Source: Parcubacteria group bacterium GW2011_GWD2_38_12 (lineage in GTDB: Bacteria > Patescibacteriota > Minisyncoccia > GWC2-36-17). From it: a stretch of 32,090 nt of DNA. Shown in pieces: positions 1 through 26,486 of this stretch. The position numbers and the translations under genes are program-made. Positions within the stretch are counted from its first letter, which is position 1. The number at the start of each line of letters is the position of its first letter. The DNA is taken from positions 1-32,090 of the forward strand of contig LBUA01000006.1 of the NCBI GenBank assembly GCA_000992345.1, written 5' to 3'. A model generated the notes under the pieces. It ran no database searches, was not told where the DNA came from, and saw nothing but the letters and a program-made list of their open reading frames with translations.

Positions 1-902
1 TATTGCCTGACTGGCGCAGTCACCCAAGCGGATGCGCCTTGGGATTCTGCGCCATTTGCCTGATAGTTTATCAAATTTTCACCATCAAGGGTAAGAGACA
101 TTCTTTCGGTGTTATTTTCCTTTTCTCTATGAATGGAAAAATCGGTTTGTGAGCTATTGAGTAGATGAGAATTGATTTTTACTGTTCTTGGCGTTCCGTT
201 TACAGTGACGATTTGTTCCCAATTGAAGGAATCTTTGGCCGGAGTTAGATAATCTTGGAAAGATATTGATACATTATCAGCCGGAAAATCCGGGAAAGAT
301 AATAATAAGGTGGTGGCATTTTGCGCGTTATTATTATAAGTGAAATGAACATGACGCGAATCAATTAATCTTGTTCCCGTTGGAGGTTGATTTAGTGTTG
401 TCGTGGTTACCTGGCCGGAATTTTCAATGGTGATATTTATTAAATTAGTCGGCTCGCTGATTTTTCTGACAGAGATTGACCCATAGTTTTGGGTTTGTCC
501 CGTGATGCGGTCAAAAAGCGTATTTACTCCTCCGCCATCTAGGGTAATATTTGAAATTTCCAGAGTTGACGGGAGGTTGTATATTTTTGTATCCGGGTCA
601 ACAGCGCTATATGTTGTTCCCCTAAATAGCGCATAGCTGGATGTTTCAAAATGCGTTCCCCATTGGCTGGCTTGTTGCGAGGAAATGGTGTTCGACCTTG
701 CTATATTTAAAACAGAAATTATATTTTGCGCGTTGCCGTTTAAATCCGTCCTCGAACGCAAAGATGCAAAGGAAATTATTGTAATTACCGTGATAACGGA
801 CATTATTGATATCGCTATTATCAATTCCAAGAGAGTGAAGCCTCTCTGCCGCTTCGCGGTAGAGAAAGAGTTTGGAGTTTGGAGTTTGGAGTTTGGAAGC
901 AT
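1..902 (-). CDS. Type IV prepilin / pseudopilin, partial (C-terminus runs off the left edge)
   Basis: Manual reverse-strand translation, open from ATG at 902 to position 1: MLPNSKLQTPNSKLQTPNSFSTAKRQRGFTLLELIIAISIMSVITVITIISFASLRSR... GFTLLELI is a class III prepilin cleavage/methylation motif followed by a hydrophobic helix. Not in the supplied ORF track because it is open at the edge. Confidence 0.85.
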   Translation of the reverse strand, partial: MLPNSKLQTPNSFSTAKRQRGFTLLELIIAISIMSVITVITIISFASLRSRTDLNGNAQNIISVLNIARSNTISSQQASQWGTHFETSSYALFRGTTYSAVDPDTKIYNLPSTLEISNITLDGGGVNTLFDRITGQTQNYGSISVRKISEPTNLINITIENSGQVTTTTLNQPPTGTRLIDSRHVHFTYNNNAQNATTLLLSFPDFPADNVSISFQDYLTPAKDSFNWEQIVTVNGTPRTVKINSHLLNSSQTDFSIHREKENNTERMSLTLDGENLINYQANGAESQGASAWVTAPVRQ

Positions 903-964
903 TGCTTTAAAATAAAAGATTGAAGATCATCTGCTAAGCTCTAATCTCCAACCTCTAGACTCTA

Positions 965-16496: not shown

Positions 16497-18764
16497 CTAT
16501 TTTAGCTTGTGCGGATTATGATTTTTACACGCCTTATTTGAGCATCTCTCCGGTATGGTTTTGGTCCCTTCCATCATCAATGACCCGCAGAAGTCGCAGA
16601 CTTTGCCGGTAGGACGCGCTTTGATAGCGAATTTGCATTTGGGGTAATTAGAGCAGGAATAAAATAATCCAAATCTTCCTCGGCGCTCAACAATTTCTCC
16701 AACATTTTCATTGTTTGTAGATTCGGATGCATTCGTAGTTTTGGATCGCGATATGCAATCAGGACATTTTACTCCGGTTTTTTTCTTTGCTTCTTCTTCC
16801 GGACTGGTTTTGATGAATTTACATTTAGGATAATTATTACAAGAGATGAATTTTCCGAATTTTCCTTCACGTTCAATCAATTTGCCGGTTTTGCATTCCG
16901 GACAGATTTCCCCGGTTTCTTTTGGCCCTTCCATTTCCGTTCCATCCATTTTTCTTGCGCCCATGCAATCAGGGAACTTTTTGCAACTTAAAAATTTGCC
17001 ATTTTTAGAAAGTTTGATAACCATTGGGCCGCTACAGATAGGGCATTTGAATTTTGCGTCCGCTTCTCCGAGATTTGTCAGTTTCTCTGTTGTTTTGTCT
17101 TTTATTTTTATTTCTTTGGAAAAGGGGCCATAGAAATCTTTGAGCATTTTTTCATATTCTCTTTTGCCCTCGGCGATTTCATCCAGTTTATTTTCCATTT
17201 CCGCGGTAAAAGAATCGCTGATATATTCGGCAAAATTATTTTCAAGAAAATCACTAACCACTTCTCCGGTATCTGTCGGATGCAAGGTTTTGCCTTCTTT
17301 TACTACATAGCCGCGATCATTAATTGTTTTTATGATGGAGGCATATGTGCTTGGTCTTCCGATTTCGCGTTTTTCTAATTCCTTGACTAGACCCGCTTCT
17401 GTATATCTTCCCGGCGGTTCCGTTTGTTTGTCTTGACTGTCAATGTTTAATAATTTTAGCGATTCATTTTCTGAAATTTTGGGGATTTGGATTTCTTCAC
17501 CTTGAGCGTCTGTGTCTGCCGCAAGCCAGCCGTCAAAAACAGTCACACTACCAATGACTGAAAAATTTGGAATAGTCGTCGGTTGTTTGTTGTCGGTTGT
17601 TTGTTGAATTATATTCGCCGATACTTTTGTTTTCATCATCTTTGCATCTGTCATCTGAGAGGAAATGGCGCGCTCCCAAATGAGGCGATAGAGGTTTTTT
17701 TGTTCGTCATTGCCCCCGGCGGTTTTCAAGGCGACATTAGTCGGGCGCACCGCTTCATGCGCTTCTTGAGCGCTTTTACTTTTGGAAGTATAAGTTCGCG
17801 GAGAAAGATATTCTTTGCCGTAAAGTTTTTCTATTGTTGTGTAAATTTGCGGGAGTGCTTCTTTACTCATATTTACACTATCTGTTCTCATATAGGTGAT
17901 AAGACCTTGTTCGTAAAGTTTTTGCGCCACACCCATTGTGCGAGAAGGAGAAAATCCAAGCCGTGAGCTTGCTGTTTGCTGGAGCGTAGAGGTGGTAAAT
18001 GGCGCGCGAGGAGATCGTTTTGTTTCGTTTTGTTTTATCTCTACGACTTTCCATGGATTTTTGCGCGCAATTTCCAGGATGCGGTTTGTTTCTTTTTCAT
18101 TTTTCGGCTCTTCTCCGCAGGTTAATGTAATTTTATCTTTTTTTTCTGTTTCAAATTCTCCTGTTAGCACCCAATAATTTTCCGGTACAAAAGCGCGGAT
18201 TTCTCTTTCGCGCTCCATTATTATACGTAGAGCCGGAGATTGGACACGGCCAGCTGATAGTCCGTAGCGCACCTTTTTCCAGATTAGGCCGCTTAAATCA
18301 TAACCAACGAGCCGGTCCAGCACTCGGCGCGCTTCTTGGGCTTTTACAAGGTTGGCGTCGATGTCGCGAGGATGTTTTATCGCTTCTTTGATAGCGCTCT
18401 CGGTAATCTCGTGAAAGACTATGCGTTTAATAGTTTTTAGTTTTGAGTTTTTAGTTTTTAGCTCGTTCAAGCCACAGGCTTGAACGATGTGCCAAGAAAT
18501 GGCTTCGCCTTCACGGTCAGGATCAGTAGCGAGTATTACTTCATCAGCTTCTTTTGATAGTTCCCTCAATTCCGCTACCACTTTTTCTTTTCCCCTAGAG
18601 ATTTCATAATGCGGAATAAATCCCCCGGGAATATCAATCGCTTTTTTGTTGCTTTTTGGTAAATCGCGGATATGTCCCACGCTTGCGCGAACGACATAAT
18701 CGCCTTTGAGATATTTTGATATTGTTTTTGTTTTCGTCGGCGACTCGACGATGACCAGCTTCAT
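16497..18764 (-). CDS. topA: DNA topoisomerase I
   Basis: 755 aa; MKLVIVESPTKTKTISKYL, DPDREGEAISWHI, LITYMRTDSVNMS, GRPSTYASII, and C-terminal zinc ribbons. Confidence 0.96.
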   Translation of the reverse strand: MKLVIVESPTKTKTISKYLKGDYVVRASVGHIRDLPKSNKKAIDIPGGFIPHYEISRGKEKVVAELRELSKEADEVILATDPDREGEAISWHIVQACGLNELKTKNSKLKTIKRIVFHEITESAIKEAIKHPRDIDANLVKAQEARRVLDRLVGYDLSGLIWKKVRYGLSAGRVQSPALRIIMEREREIRAFVPENYWVLTGEFETEKKDKITLTCGEEPKNEKETNRILEIARKNPWKVVEIKQNETKRSPRAPFTTSTLQQTASSRLGFSPSRTMGVAQKLYEQGLITYMRTDSVNMSKEALPQIYTTIEKLYGKEYLSPRTYTSKSKSAQEAHEAVRPTNVALKTAGGNDEQKNLYRLIWERAISSQMTDAKMMKTKVSANIIQQTTDNKQPTTIPNFSVIGSVTVFDGWLAADTDAQGEEIQIPKISENESLKLLNIDSQDKQTEPPGRYTEAGLVKELEKREIGRPSTYASIIKTINDRGYVVKEGKTLHPTDTGEVVSDFLENNFAEYISDSFTAEMENKLDEIAEGKREYEKMLKDFYGPFSKEIKIKDKTTEKLTNLGEADAKFKCPICSGPMVIKLSKNGKFLSCKKFPDCMGARKMDGTEMEGPKETGEICPECKTGKLIEREGKFGKFISCNNYPKCKFIKTSPEEEAKKKTGVKCPDCISRSKTTNASESTNNENVGEIVERRGRFGLFYSCSNYPKCKFAIKARPTGKVCDFCGSLMMEGTKTIPERCSNKACKNHNPHKLK

Positions 18765-21409: not shown

Positions 21410-23290
21410 ATGCCCTGGCTCTATATTGCAATTTCATCTCATTTTATTTTTGCGCTCGTTTTTATTTTAGATAAAATTCTCGTTAAAAAAGTATTCTCCC
21501 CTCTGAATTATGTTTTGGTTATTGGGGGCCTCAGCAGTCTTTCGCTATTTTTGTTGCCATTCGTTGATTTTTCCAATTTAAATGGAATGGTTTTGGCCAC
21601 CGCGCTCTTGAGCGGTGTTTTTTCTATTATTGGAATTTATTTTTATTTTAAAATTCTTTTAAAGCACGAGGCTAGTTGGGTTGTGCCCTTGCTTTTTGGA
21701 GTTTTTGTTCCGATAGTCACATTTATTTTGAGCCGTTTTTTCCTTGGAGAAATTTTATCATCTGTTCAGTTTGCCGCTTTTACCATATTAATTATTGGCG
21801 GTTTTATTTTATCTTTTGGAAGAAAATATAATTTTCATTCCATTCTAATTTTATTGATTGCCGGTATATTTCTTTCCCTGGAGCTTGTTTTTTTGAAGTC
21901 CGCGTTCAATCATGTTGATTTTATTTCCGGGTATATTCTGTCTCGCTTTGGAGGTTTTCTGGCTGGATTTATAATATTTTTAATTTTTTATCGTAAAAGA
22001 CTAACGGAATTTAGTGGCGGGAATATAAGAAACTATATTTCAAATTCCTATCGGGGTATCGGTCTTGTACTTTTTAAGCAATTTTTATCTTTGGTGGGGA
22101 ATTTAATTCTTGTTTTTTCTGTTTCCATTGGGAATCTGACCTTGATTAACGGGCTTGGAGGCATTAGATATTCTTTTGTTTTTTTTCTGGCGATTTTTTT
22201 CTCCAGAAAATGGCCGGCCGTGATGGAAGAACCGTTGAATTTTTGGATGTTGGTTAAAAAGAGTATTGCCATTATATTTATTATGTCAGGTGTTTTGATT
22301 TTGCTTTTGGAGCCGGCTGAAACTCCGGGGGCGAAAAGTTGGGGAGCGACCTTTACGACGCTTTATTCTCGCGAATTAGGCCTCAACGAAAAAGATGTTT
22401 TAATCGCGGCGTTAGACGACTTAAAAATTAAAGAATTTAGAGTTGTTGCTTATTGGTCTCAAATTGAAGAGCAAAAAGGTCAATATGATTTTTCCGATCT
22501 GGATTTTCAAATAGAGAGTATTGCGTCACGCGGCGGTAAAATAATTTTGGCTGTTGGGGAGCGTTTGCCGCGCTGGCCAGAATGTCATATTCCAGATTGG
22601 GCGAGCGAGCAAGAGCCAGCAGGTTTTATAAGGCAAGTGATAAAGCAATTCCCACATTATGAGAAAGCCGAAGAATTTCAGGGAGCATTGCTTGGATATA
22701 TTGAAGCTACGGTAAATCGCTACAAAAATAACTCAGCGATTTGGGCTTGGCAATTGGAAAATGAACCATTTTTAATCGGCTTTGGCGAATGTCCATATGT
22801 TGATGATGAGCTCATAGATAAAGAAATAGATTTAATAAAAAGATTAGACAGCGCTCGTCCTTTAATTCTCACGGACAGCGGGGAATTTGGAATGTGGTTT
22901 CGGGCATATAAAAGAGCGGATATTTTTGGCACAACAATGTATCGTGTTGTACTGTCGCGTTTAATTCCCATCGGGCATTTTAAATATCCTTTGGATCCTG
23001 ATTTTTTCAAAATTAAATTGGGGATTATGGAGATGTTTTGGGGAAAAAAGCCGATCGTCGGCGTGGAATTGCAAGCTGAGCCCTGGCTATTAAAGCGGCC
23101 ACCGCTTGTGTCGCTTGACGAGCAATTGAAAGCGTTTAGTTTTGAGCAATTTAAGGAAAATATTGGATATGCGCGCGAAGCGGGATTTGAAAAAAATTTT
23201 TTGTGGGGTTTGGAATGGTGGTATTGGATGAAAGAAAAACAGGGGCATCCGGAGTTTTGGGAAGAGGCAAGGAAATTGTTTGTACAGTAA
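21410..23290 (+). CDS. Fusion: EamA/DMT-type 10-TM membrane domain plus C-terminal clan GH-A-like glycoside hydrolase domain
   Basis: 626 aa; residues 1-300 carry about 10 hydrophobic helices with EamA-like layout; C-terminal part GATFTTLYSRELGL...AIWAWQLENEPFL...GVELQAEPW...NFLWGLEWWYWMK. Confidence 0.8.
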   Translation: MPWLYIAISSHFIFALVFILDKILVKKVFSPLNYVLVIGGLSSLSLFLLPFVDFSNLNGMVLATALLSGVFSIIGIYFYFKILLKHEASWVVPLLFGVFVPIVTFILSRFFLGEILSSVQFAAFTILIIGGFILSFGRKYNFHSILILLIAGIFLSLELVFLKSAFNHVDFISGYILSRFGGFLAGFIIFLIFYRKRLTEFSGGNIRNYISNSYRGIGLVLFKQFLSLVGNLILVFSVSIGNLTLINGLGGIRYSFVFFLAIFFSRKWPAVMEEPLNFWMLVKKSIAIIFIMSGVLILLLEPAETPGAKSWGATFTTLYSRELGLNEKDVLIAALDDLKIKEFRVVAYWSQIEEQKGQYDFSDLDFQIESIASRGGKIILAVGERLPRWPECHIPDWASEQEPAGFIRQVIKQFPHYEKAEEFQGALLGYIEATVNRYKNNSAIWAWQLENEPFLIGFGECPYVDDELIDKEIDLIKRLDSARPLILTDSGEFGMWFRAYKRADIFGTTMYRVVLSRLIPIGHFKYPLDPDFFKIKLGIMEMFWGKKPIVGVELQAEPWLLKRPPLVSLDEQLKAFSFEQFKENIGYAREAGFEKNFLWGLEWWYWMKEKQGHPEFWEEARKLFVQ

Positions 23291-23340
23291 ATAAAATATT
23301 AAATATCAAAATGCAAAATGACAAATTAAAATTTAAAAAT
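23290..23340. repeat. Left inverted repeat/heptad array of the four-helix-bundle cassette
   Basis: TTAAATA TCAAAAT GCAAAAT GACAAAT TAAAATT TAAAAAT; partner at 23697-23740. Confidence 0.75.
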
Positions 23341-23709
23341 GAATTCAAGAAAAGATTATATAATTTCACATTAAAATTAATAAAATTTATTGATAAATTA
23401 TCCAATGATAATGTTTCAAGGAGAATGGGTGATCAACTATTAAGAAGTGGAACAAGTATTCTGGGAAATTATGTTGAAGGTCAATCATCTAGCAGTAGGA
23501 AAGATTTTATAAATTTCTTTAACCACTCTTTAAAATCAACTAACGAAAGTAAGTTGTGGATTGCTATATTAAGAGATAGTAAGAGAGCTAAAGATATTGA
23601 TGTAGGGTGGTTTTTAAAGGAATTAGATGAGATATTAAATATATTTGCTTCGAGTATTTTAACGTTAAAAGGTAAAAAGTATTTTTTTATTTTTTATATG
23701 TCATTTTGA
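23311..23709 (+). CDS. Four-helix-bundle protein (23S rRNA intervening-sequence protein family)
   Basis: MQNDKLKFKNEFKKRLYNFTLKLIKFIDKLSNDNVSRRMGDQLLRSGTSILGNYVEGQSSSSRKDFINFFNHSLKSTNESKLWIAIL...; the track start at 23203 lies inside the upstream gene. Confidence 0.85.
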   Translation: MQNDKLKFKNEFKKRLYNFTLKLIKFIDKLSNDNVSRRMGDQLLRSGTSILGNYVEGQSSSSRKDFINFFNHSLKSTNESKLWIAILRDSKRAKDIDVGWFLKELDEILNIFASSILTLKGKKYFFIFYMSF

Positions 23710-23740: not shown

Positions 23741-24503
23741 GTATAAACTTGGCATAGATATTGGCGGGACAAAAATAAGGGGGGTGGTGATTGATGACCG
23801 TAATAAAAAAGTGGCGGATTTTGATATTAAAACGCCAAAAAATAAAAATTTTTTTTTGGTGGCGCTGGAAAGAGAAATTATAGGAATCTCGGTTTGTTAT
23901 AAGATTTCTGGCATTGGTATCGGACTTCCCGGGATTGTTGATGTAAAAAGGGGTGTGTTGGTTAAGGCGCCGAATTTGCCGTTTTTAGACGGCTGGCAGG
24001 CGCGAGAATTTTTTAAAAAATACAGTCGTAAAGTAGCGGTAGAAAATGATAGTCGATGTTTTTTGTTGGCTGAGTCAAAATTGGGCAACGCTCAAAAATA
24101 CAAAAATGCGATTGGCCTGACTATTGGTACGGGCATCGGCGGAGCAATGATGATTGGAGAGGAAATTTATCGGGGCGCAAATTTTGGAGCTGGGGAATTT
24201 GGCCATATGATTATTGATGATAAAAAAAGTTTTGAACAATTAGCCGCCAAGAAAGCGTTTGAAAAATATGGCGACAGGAGCAAGATAATCGGCATTGGAA
24301 TTGCCAATATTATTAATATCTTGAATCCCGAAGCGGTGATTTTGGGCGGAGGTGGCGTTGCGACTGGCGGAGTAAAAATTGAATTAGTGAAAAAAGAAGC
24401 AAAAAAATATATTATGTCTCCGCTCGCTAAAAACACCATTATTATTAAGGGAAAATTAGGAAAATACGCCCCTGCCATTGGCGCAGCATTACTTATTTTT
24501 TAA
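23739..24503 (+). CDS. ROK family sugar kinase-like protein
   Basis: 254 aa; LGIDIGGTKIRGVVI, GIGIGLPGIVD, VENDSRC, IGLTIGTGIGGAMMIGEEIYRGANFGAGEFGHM. Confidence 0.88.
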   Translation: MYKLGIDIGGTKIRGVVIDDRNKKVADFDIKTPKNKNFFLVALEREIIGISVCYKISGIGIGLPGIVDVKRGVLVKAPNLPFLDGWQAREFFKKYSRKVAVENDSRCFLLAESKLGNAQKYKNAIGLTIGTGIGGAMMIGEEIYRGANFGAGEFGHMIIDDKKSFEQLAAKKAFEKYGDRSKIIGIGIANIINILNPEAVILGGGGVATGGVKIELVKKEAKKYIMSPLAKNTIIIKGKLGKYAPAIGAALLIF

Positions 24504-26486
24504 TTTCTCTACTGCCTCTGATAGTATTTGGCAATATAAATTCAGTCCGACTTTATTCATGTTGCCGCTCTGGGAGCGACCGAGAATATTGCCGGCGCCG
24601 CGGATTTCTAAATCTTTTTGGGCGATTTTCCAGCCATCGCCAAGTTCGGTGGCTGATTCCAATGCTTCAAGACGTTCTTTGGCGGCATTTTTTAATTCCT
24701 TTTCGTTGTAAAGGAAATAAGCATGGGCGGTTTTGTCCGACCGGCCAATACGGCCACGAAGTTGATAGCTTTGAGCGAGTCCCAACCTTGTGGCATTGGC
24801 GACAATTAATGTGTTGGCATTGGGAAGATCTAATCCGTTTTCAATAATGGTGGTCGCCAGCAGTAAATCATATTTTTTGTCGCGAAAATCGTGGATAATT
24901 TTGCGAAGTTGTCCCTCGCTCATTCGGCCGTGGGCGATGGCGATTTTCAAATTAGGCATTATTTTGCGAAGTCGCATTGCTTCGCTTTGAATCGTTTGGA
25001 CGCGATTATAAAGGAAAAATATCTGGCCATGGCGGCTCAACTCTTTTTTCACAGCTTTGATTATTATGTTTTCTGAGTAAGGCAGAACAAATGTTTCTAT
25101 AGCTTTACGTCCGGGTGGAGGTGTTTGAATAGTGCTGATTTTTCTCATCCCTGAAAGCGCCAAATACATCGTGCGAGGGATTGGTGTAGCCGATAAACTC
25201 AATATATCCACCTCCTCGCGCAGATGCTTGAATTTTTCTTTTTGTTTCACTCCGAATCTTTGTTCTTCATCAATTATCAAAAGCCCGAGATTTTTAAAAT
25301 GTATGTCATTAGAGAGTAGGCGATGAGTTCCGATGATAATATCAATTTTCCCCACTTCCAATTCTCTGGCGGATTTTTGTTGATTTTGTTTTGATTCCAT
25401 GCGGGACATTAAGGCGGTTTTTAGTGGGAAATTTTTTAGACGCTCGGAAAAAGTCTCAAAATGTTGGTCAGCAAGAATTGTTGTCGGGCAAAGGAGCGCT
25501 ACTTGGCGGCCGCTCATCACGGCTTTGAAAGCGGCGCGGAGCGCGACTTCGGTCTTGCCAAATCCCACATCGCCGCAAATCAATCTATCCATTGGCTCTG
25601 CGAGTGCCATATCTTTTTTTATATCTTCAATGGCTTTGAGCTGGTCTTCAGTTTCAAAATGTTTAAATTGCGATTCAAAATCTCTTTGCATTTGATCATC
25701 TAAATGGTAGGGAGGGCGCGTGGAGATTTCTCTTTTAGCGTAAATTTCAAGCAGTTCTTTAGCGAATTTTTCCACATCTTCTTTTATCTTATGTTTTGTT
25801 TTTAACCAGATTTCCGAACCAAGACGATGAACGGTTGGATTTTCAAAACCGATATAGAGTGAAAGTTTTTTGGCTTGTTCCAGTGGCACATAGAGCCGAT
25901 CGGGATTTTGCCCGTGTTTTGGCGTGGCGTACTCAATAATGAAAAAAGAGTTTGGAGTTTGGAGTTCAGAGTTTAGAAATTGATCCGCCACGGCGGATCC
26001 GCGAAAAATCCCAATTCCGTGGTCAAGGTGAACAATATAATCTCCTTCTTTGAATTCTTTTGATTCCTCTTGTGATTTTTCCTGCGCTTTGATTTTTTTG
26101 TTTAAAATTTTCAGTCGTAGATCATCATTTATTTTTTCGCCAAGCGATATAATACTTTCTATTTTATTGCCAAAAAATTCCAGACGCAAAGCTTGGAGCG
26201 AATTAGCGGGAAAAATATCAATAATCCCTCCGCGACTGGCGAATTCTCCGGGGCTGGCGATAGTTTGGACTTTTTCGTATCCCATATCGGATATTTTGCG
26301 CATAAATTCCGATGGATTCAACTTTAAATTTTTTTCAAAAAACAAAATATTTTTTTGCCACCAGCTATTCGTCAAGGCTTGATTTTTGATTTTGGAAATA
26401 TTTTCCGAAAACCAAATCTCCCCTTTGTCCAAAAAGAAGGGGTCGAGCGATGCGATCAAAAATTCCATTGATTTTTTGTCAGCCAT
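24489..26486 (-). CDS. mfd: Short Mfd-like transcription-repair coupling factor (RecG/Mfd helicase)
   Basis: 665 aa; SRGGIIDIFP, VHLDHGIGIFRG (RNAP-interaction domain), RLICGDVGFGKTEVALRAAF, IIDEEQRFGV, SATPIPRTMYLALSG, TTIIENGLDLPNANTLIV, QLRGRIGRS. Confidence 0.9.
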   Translation of the reverse strand: MADKKSMEFLIASLDPFFLDKGEIWFSENISKIKNQALTNSWWQKNILFFEKNLKLNPSEFMRKISDMGYEKVQTIASPGEFASRGGIIDIFPANSLQALRLEFFGNKIESIISLGEKINDDLRLKILNKKIKAQEKSQEESKEFKEGDYIVHLDHGIGIFRGSAVADQFLNSELQTPNSFFIIEYATPKHGQNPDRLYVPLEQAKKLSLYIGFENPTVHRLGSEIWLKTKHKIKEDVEKFAKELLEIYAKREISTRPPYHLDDQMQRDFESQFKHFETEDQLKAIEDIKKDMALAEPMDRLICGDVGFGKTEVALRAAFKAVMSGRQVALLCPTTILADQHFETFSERLKNFPLKTALMSRMESKQNQQKSARELEVGKIDIIIGTHRLLSNDIHFKNLGLLIIDEEQRFGVKQKEKFKHLREEVDILSLSATPIPRTMYLALSGMRKISTIQTPPPGRKAIETFVLPYSENIIIKAVKKELSRHGQIFFLYNRVQTIQSEAMRLRKIMPNLKIAIAHGRMSEGQLRKIIHDFRDKKYDLLLATTIIENGLDLPNANTLIVANATRLGLAQSYQLRGRIGRSDKTAHAYFLYNEKELKNAAKERLEALESATELGDGWKIAQKDLEIRGAGNILGRSQSGNMNKVGLNLYCQILSEAVEKLKNK

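Follow-up and report, generated by a model that had tools for sequence, protein, structure and literature searches.

How does a stretch of DNA found at the start of a prepilin gene come to lie inside mfd, which encodes an unrelated protein? We analysed a window of 32,090 nucleotides (contig LBUA01000006.1, Parcubacteria group bacterium GW2011_GWD2_38_12), for which the original prediction was an in-frame insertion of a heptad repeat and a palindrome in mfd from position 25947 onwards. The segment is real, and its true start is 25945, 2 bp earlier. As shown in Table 1, the 20-mer AAAGAGTTTGGAGTTTGGAG is identical in mfd and at the prepilin start, and dinucleotide-preserving shuffles gave 0 matches. 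This 20-mer overlaps the heptad array, and 7 bases beyond the array lies the perfect palindrome GATCCGCC-AC-GGCGGATC. Both the 20-mer and the palindrome are in frame in the minus-strand mfd ORF; the 20-mer region and the palindrome jointly encode SAVADQFLNSELQTPNS, in the mfd-strand context RG-SAVADQFLNSELQTPNS-FFIIEYA, and the palindrome codes for SAVADQ. The heptad is indeed free of stops in both orientations, reading LQTPNSK or FGVWSLE. The mfd site is a one-armed copy, in which heptads flank the palindrome core on one side and are absent on the other. We saw no further copy in which GAGTTTG arms adjoin this core directly, so heptad and core may have reached mfd separately, in two steps. 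Within the window, the palindrome is its own sole match at ≤3 mismatches; because 4 of 100 shuffles also reached one such match, the palindrome evidence from the window is weak when taken alone.

Table 1. Repeat-derived features and the genes that carry them in the window.
Feature	Position	Strand	Remarks
mfd, 665 aa, short form	24489..26486	minus	UvrB-interaction domain, RID, translocase domains
20-mer AAAGAGTTTGGAGTTTGGAG	25945..25964	+	exact match to 865-884
GAGTTTG heptad array, 3.9 units	25948..25974	+	mfd strand CTCCAAA, peptide NSELQTPNS
Palindrome GATCCGCCACGGCGGATC	25982..25999	.	member of dispersed family AATCCGCCNNGGCGGATT; encodes SAVADQ
Heptad array in topA	18431..18461	minus	peptide LKTKNSKLKT, net +8 aa vs E. 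coli TopI
Second heptad array in topA	17578..17606	minus	peptide QQTTDNKQPTT
GAGTTTG heptad array over prepilin start	865..898, strongest 868-897	+	encodes leader peptide MLPNSKLQTPNS
Inverted heptad arm, pilC-prepilin gap	939..962	minus	hairpin with 865-898

The host protein carries both the RNA-polymerase-interacting domain (RID; Pfam CarD_TRCF_RID, residues 145-212) and the RecG-like helicase/translocase domains by which an Mfd is recognised, and its fold matches Mfd structures. Here and in relatives of the class, Mfd is a short form of roughly 650-750 aa which ends at about E. coli residue 987; the regulatory domain at the C terminus is missing, as is much of the N-terminal part. The peptide SAVADQFLNSELQTPNS is the beta-hairpin turn of the RID. 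An AlphaFold2 model from a 30-sequence alignment has strands at residues 157-167 and 179-185, with pLDDT <50 at 168-177; because this low-confidence region lies between two predicted strands, the heptad-coded part is probably an exposed and flexible hairpin turn, in line with the surface loop that had been expected. By phmmer, E. coli L499 aligns opposite Ala167, with an uncertainty of 1-2 residues at that point. In E. coli Mfd, changing L499 to Arg abolishes RNA polymerase binding (PMC5910403).

In an alignment with about 130 other Mfds, the stretch proves to be derived rather than ancestral. HGIG and the [LIV]xVP strand are 37 residues apart here, compared to 25-26 in 72 of the 73 Mfds from outside the class in which this spacing could be measured (out of 80 such loci) and 29 in the remaining one, which agrees with the short canonical connection that had been assumed. 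Conservation of the stretch across diverse Mfds, the sign of an ancestral sequence, was looked for in the alignment and was not found. Other Mfds do not have the stretch: none of the 80 outside Mfds has an insertion of ≥7 residues at this turn, and the short turn of G017 (62% identical, the nearest relative identified) reads RG-ITVQDGTN-YCVIEYA, relative to which the 17-residue turn here has a net gain of 9 residues. No same-genus relative turned up in the genome search or among the mfd loci compared. Against this nearest relative, about 55 bp of repeat-derived DNA yields a net gain of only 27 bp, and hence part of the native loop codons must have been lost or replaced too. Thus the prediction of an insertion holds for a derived stretch in mfd but not for a simple, clean insertion.

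We found that the repeats occur throughout the 674-kb genome (23 contigs, 96% complete). The palindrome family AATCCGCCNNGGCGGATT is present at 31 places at ≤3 mismatches of the window version, whereas the reversed control gave 0. The exact core has a patchy distribution in the class: of 191 genomes, 6 contain it, and two genomes from a single genus have 4 and 15 copies. The GAGTTTG heptad occurs at about 20 sites in this genome. In a sample covering about half of the genome (15 stretches plus the window, 331 kb, with simple ORF calling), 121 of 212 non-redundant tandem arrays have a period of 7, 14, 21 or 28, compared to 2 per simulation in three Markov simulations. The density of period-7 arrays per 100 kb is 36.5 here and ranges from 4 to 23 in ten other class members; 50 kb of E. 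coli contained none, and the mfd loci from outside the class gave 0.8. Core and heptads also occur together, as in the intergenic core with heptad arms CATGAAACATGAA-GTCCGCCGCGGCGGAC-TTCATGTTTCATG, and 11 of 23 cores have a period-7 flank, compared to 11% of random intergenic positions. Inverted partners within 100 bp were counted for 12 of the 56 arrays between genes, for 2 of the 41 in coding sequence and for 5 of 121 control places. Intergenic GAGTTTG arrays often form hairpins (contigs C4, C7, C14 and C10, and 865-962 in the window), and those inside genes are mostly single.

Several side observations concern the make-up of these repeats. In the 331-kb sample, differing heptads hold an AC/GT dinucleotide in register at about 100 times expectation over four units (AG, 35 times), and the heptads look as if built on GTNNNNN. 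A separate ORF at 23203-23709 encodes a 23S-rRNA-intervening-sequence (four-helix) protein, PF05635, and has period-7 arrays near both ends. A role of the half-site AATCCGCC as a DNA uptake sequence was considered and rejected, since its 52 occurrences in 331 kb, compared to 41 expected, are not an enrichment of the single site. Several hairpins with the tip AATCCGCC..GGCGGATT in the genome G044 end in T-runs; a simple terminator reading is nevertheless insufficient, as the copy in mfd lies in the middle of a gene and T-runs are missing from many of this genome's copies. In G044, G013, G188 and G143 (L272-L285) and in G004 (L245-L251), hairpins share a conserved tip, AATCCGCC..GGCGGATT or TTCGAGGTTSAACCTCGAA, and their arms are long, pair perfectly and vary in sequence between copies; the arms look as though one had been made or mended by copying the other.

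Other genes have captured the repeats too. In the 331-kb sample, 41 of 121 heptad arrays lie wholly within ORFs; IleRS has three of them, LeuRS four and TopA two. Set against solved structures, IleRS and TopA are longer by a net 7 and 8 aa, respectively. All ten CTCCAAA arrays >15 bp within ORFs (two of them at ORF starts) read LQTPNSK and none reads the aromatic FGVWSLE, although both orientations are open, which suggests selection for the polar peptide. CTCCAAA heptads were also observed in a RecG-like helicase gene (G000, C20:2839-2869, L030), between the DEQHRFGV and TATPIPRT motifs. At the prepilin locus, the space separating pilC from the prepilin gene is bridged by inverted heptad arms (865-962); because the prepilin start codon adjoins one arm, the heptads form the prepilin leader MLPNSKLQTPNS, and the prepilin ORF has no other usable start before GFTLLEL. 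The sharing between mfd and prepilin is no special link between the two genes but an instance of something seen across the genome and across the class.

Could the heptads have arisen in place in each gene by pure local slippage, with their likeness reflecting a slippage-prone unit? Period 7 is typical of bacterial slippage arrays (PMC4692102), and the IleRS insertion, compared with a solved structure, measures exactly three heptads (net +7 aa, 21 bp). However, one and the same GAGTTTG unit recurs at its many sites, often with inverted pairs and a common palindrome core, and the mfd segment includes the palindrome core too. Slippage as the sole source is thus very unlikely, and the discrete element of G080 described below, with its fixed ends, counts against it as well; slippage may have lengthened arrays after arrival.

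We found that the same Mfd loop is filled in other lineages. An insertion of ≥7 residues at this turn is present in 13 of 50 class Mfds (this one included) compared to 0 of 80 outside (Fisher p 1.4e-6, a value that ignores kinship among the 50 Mfds), and the RID turn is the site most often lengthened in class Mfds. Three more class members have long inserts one loop further on, after EYA. In 7 of the 13 turn inserts, the insert DNA is a repeat of its own genome, which makes seven lineages: this genome and six relatives, each with a different family label. Comparable period-7 or hairpin structure is present in about 4% of background windows. G080, the clearest case, has an inverted-repeat element of 70-93 bp, ATCAACGAATTACGAATC...GATTCGTAATTCGTTGAT (62 terminus matches, about 30 elements, L212-L241), with fixed ends and a variable middle, and one element lies in mfd (C7:8109-8178). 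G004 has 9 copies of TTCGAGGTTSAACCTCGAA and G086 has 5 copies of CGAGGTNNNACCTCG, in each case with one in mfd. One run of CAAATCA-type heptads lies in mfd of G046, and one run of ATACCAA heptads (40 matches) in mfd of G109. The weakest case of the six is G054, in which a 28-bp palindrome has 2 copies, one of them in mfd. Each class genome was seen to have its own repeat set (L171-L210; L212-L241 in G080). With unrelated repeats at this position in at least six lineages besides this one, the loop is a natural acceptor of repeats inserted in frame.

These parallels bear on two further explanations. An assembly artefact, in which repeats misjoined two contigs within mfd, might be suspected in a genome of 23 contigs, as repeats are typical sites of assembly error; but the ORF runs uninterrupted through 665 codons and shows good homology to either side of the segment, and parallel in-frame inserts occur in independent genomes, so that this explanation is almost certainly wrong. 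The other is adaptive retuning, in which the turn inserts alter the grip of Mfd on RNA polymerase and lineages exploit repeats to adjust transcription-coupled repair. The turn comes directly after the strand contacting the RNA polymerase beta subunit, adjoining the E. coli L499 position, and is so often lengthened; in addition, REP-carrying genes are enriched for repair genes, and altered function has been speculated (PMC3733652). Against this, the 13 turn inserts are mutually unlike in sequence, length and charge pattern, the heptads are alike in many unrelated enzymes, the turn is predicted to be disordered, and most class members have no insert, which leaves retuning improbable.

Taken together, the analysis shows repeats that are dispersed, lie in frame and are independent between lineages, and we consider it highly probable that the mfd segment is an in-frame captured, tolerated fragment of the genome's own dispersed repeats in a permissive RID turn. 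The captured fragment would consist of one GAGTTTG heptad arm and the AATCCGCC..GGCGGATT palindrome core, translated as a polar and probably flexible loop. The repeats would spread fast, whether through an undetected transposase or through slippage or template switching at hairpins, and most coding insertions would be purged. Survivors would be those that keep the frame, bring no stop, encode a polar peptide and fall in an exposed turn, a description which the Mfd turn fits; for Mfd the insert is most likely near-neutral. A RAYT/Y1 transposase encoded in this genome was considered as the mobilizer and rejected, since the Y1 transposase family PF01797 is absent from this 96% complete genome and present in 5 of 14 control genomes. 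It is rather unlikely that the Mfd RID turn is a preferred and not merely tolerated landing site class-wide, through repair-coupled spread or a selected Mfd-RNA polymerase contact, in which case the repeats would be a general engine of loop growth with an undescribed mode of dispersal.

In-frame capture of repeats has a precedent in the Rickettsia palindromic elements (RPE; Ogata et al. 2000, 2002, summarised in PMC10969869), which are about 150 bp long and lie in frame in many genes. Compared with RPE as that summary describes them, the repeats here are likewise dispersed, palindromic and in frame in many unrelated protein genes (arrays in IleRS, LeuRS and TopA), and proteins with RPE are presumed functional (PMC10969869). 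In contrast to RPE as summarised there, no palindromic element of 100-150 bp with a conserved peptide was found; there is an 18-bp core with heptad arms (27-bp array) or the 70-93 bp elements of G080, the sequences are genome-specific and from another phylum, and one protein has the same loop occupied in several lineages. On the best reading, the system would work like RPE but draw on other sequence families and include heptads. REPs (GTAG/CGTC-tagged) are short stem-loop repeats, mostly intergenic and some inside DNA-repair genes, and the main text of the REP review does not mention mfd (PMC3733652). Unlike them, the core consensus AATCCGCCNNGGCGGATT has no GTAG or CGTC foot, and unlike RAYT-associated REPs the repeats have no Y1 tyrosine transposase in their genome. 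To our knowledge, no RAYT is known for CGTC REPs.

The heptanucleotide arrays of cyanobacteria and Xanthomonas (STRR) that have been studied are G-rich and mainly intergenic (PMC4692102). The heptads here resemble them in forming many dispersed period-7 arrays, some as inverted pairs, but have many units, are mostly A+T-rich and lie in about a third of arrays fully in coding sequence. The G080 element resembles a MITE in its size, near-perfect terminal inverted repeats and copy number; unlike a MITE, it has a variable middle and no known partner transposase, and no target-site duplication was seen in the flanks of 19 copies. Because of these mismatches in size, tag, transposase or unit sequence, the repeats are not assigned to RPE, REP, STRR or MITE.

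We found no account of such repeat capture in Patescibacteria in the open-licence literature. That dispersed repeats can be captured in frame as protein is an idea already known, though rare, with its best documentation in Rickettsia; here such capture spans a class of small-genome bacteria and includes essential enzymes. Genomes that are regarded as streamlined can thus bear a heavy load of 7-bp repeats, and the independent filling of one Mfd loop by different repeats in seven lineages amounts to a natural experiment, with replicates, on which protein loops accept random sequence.
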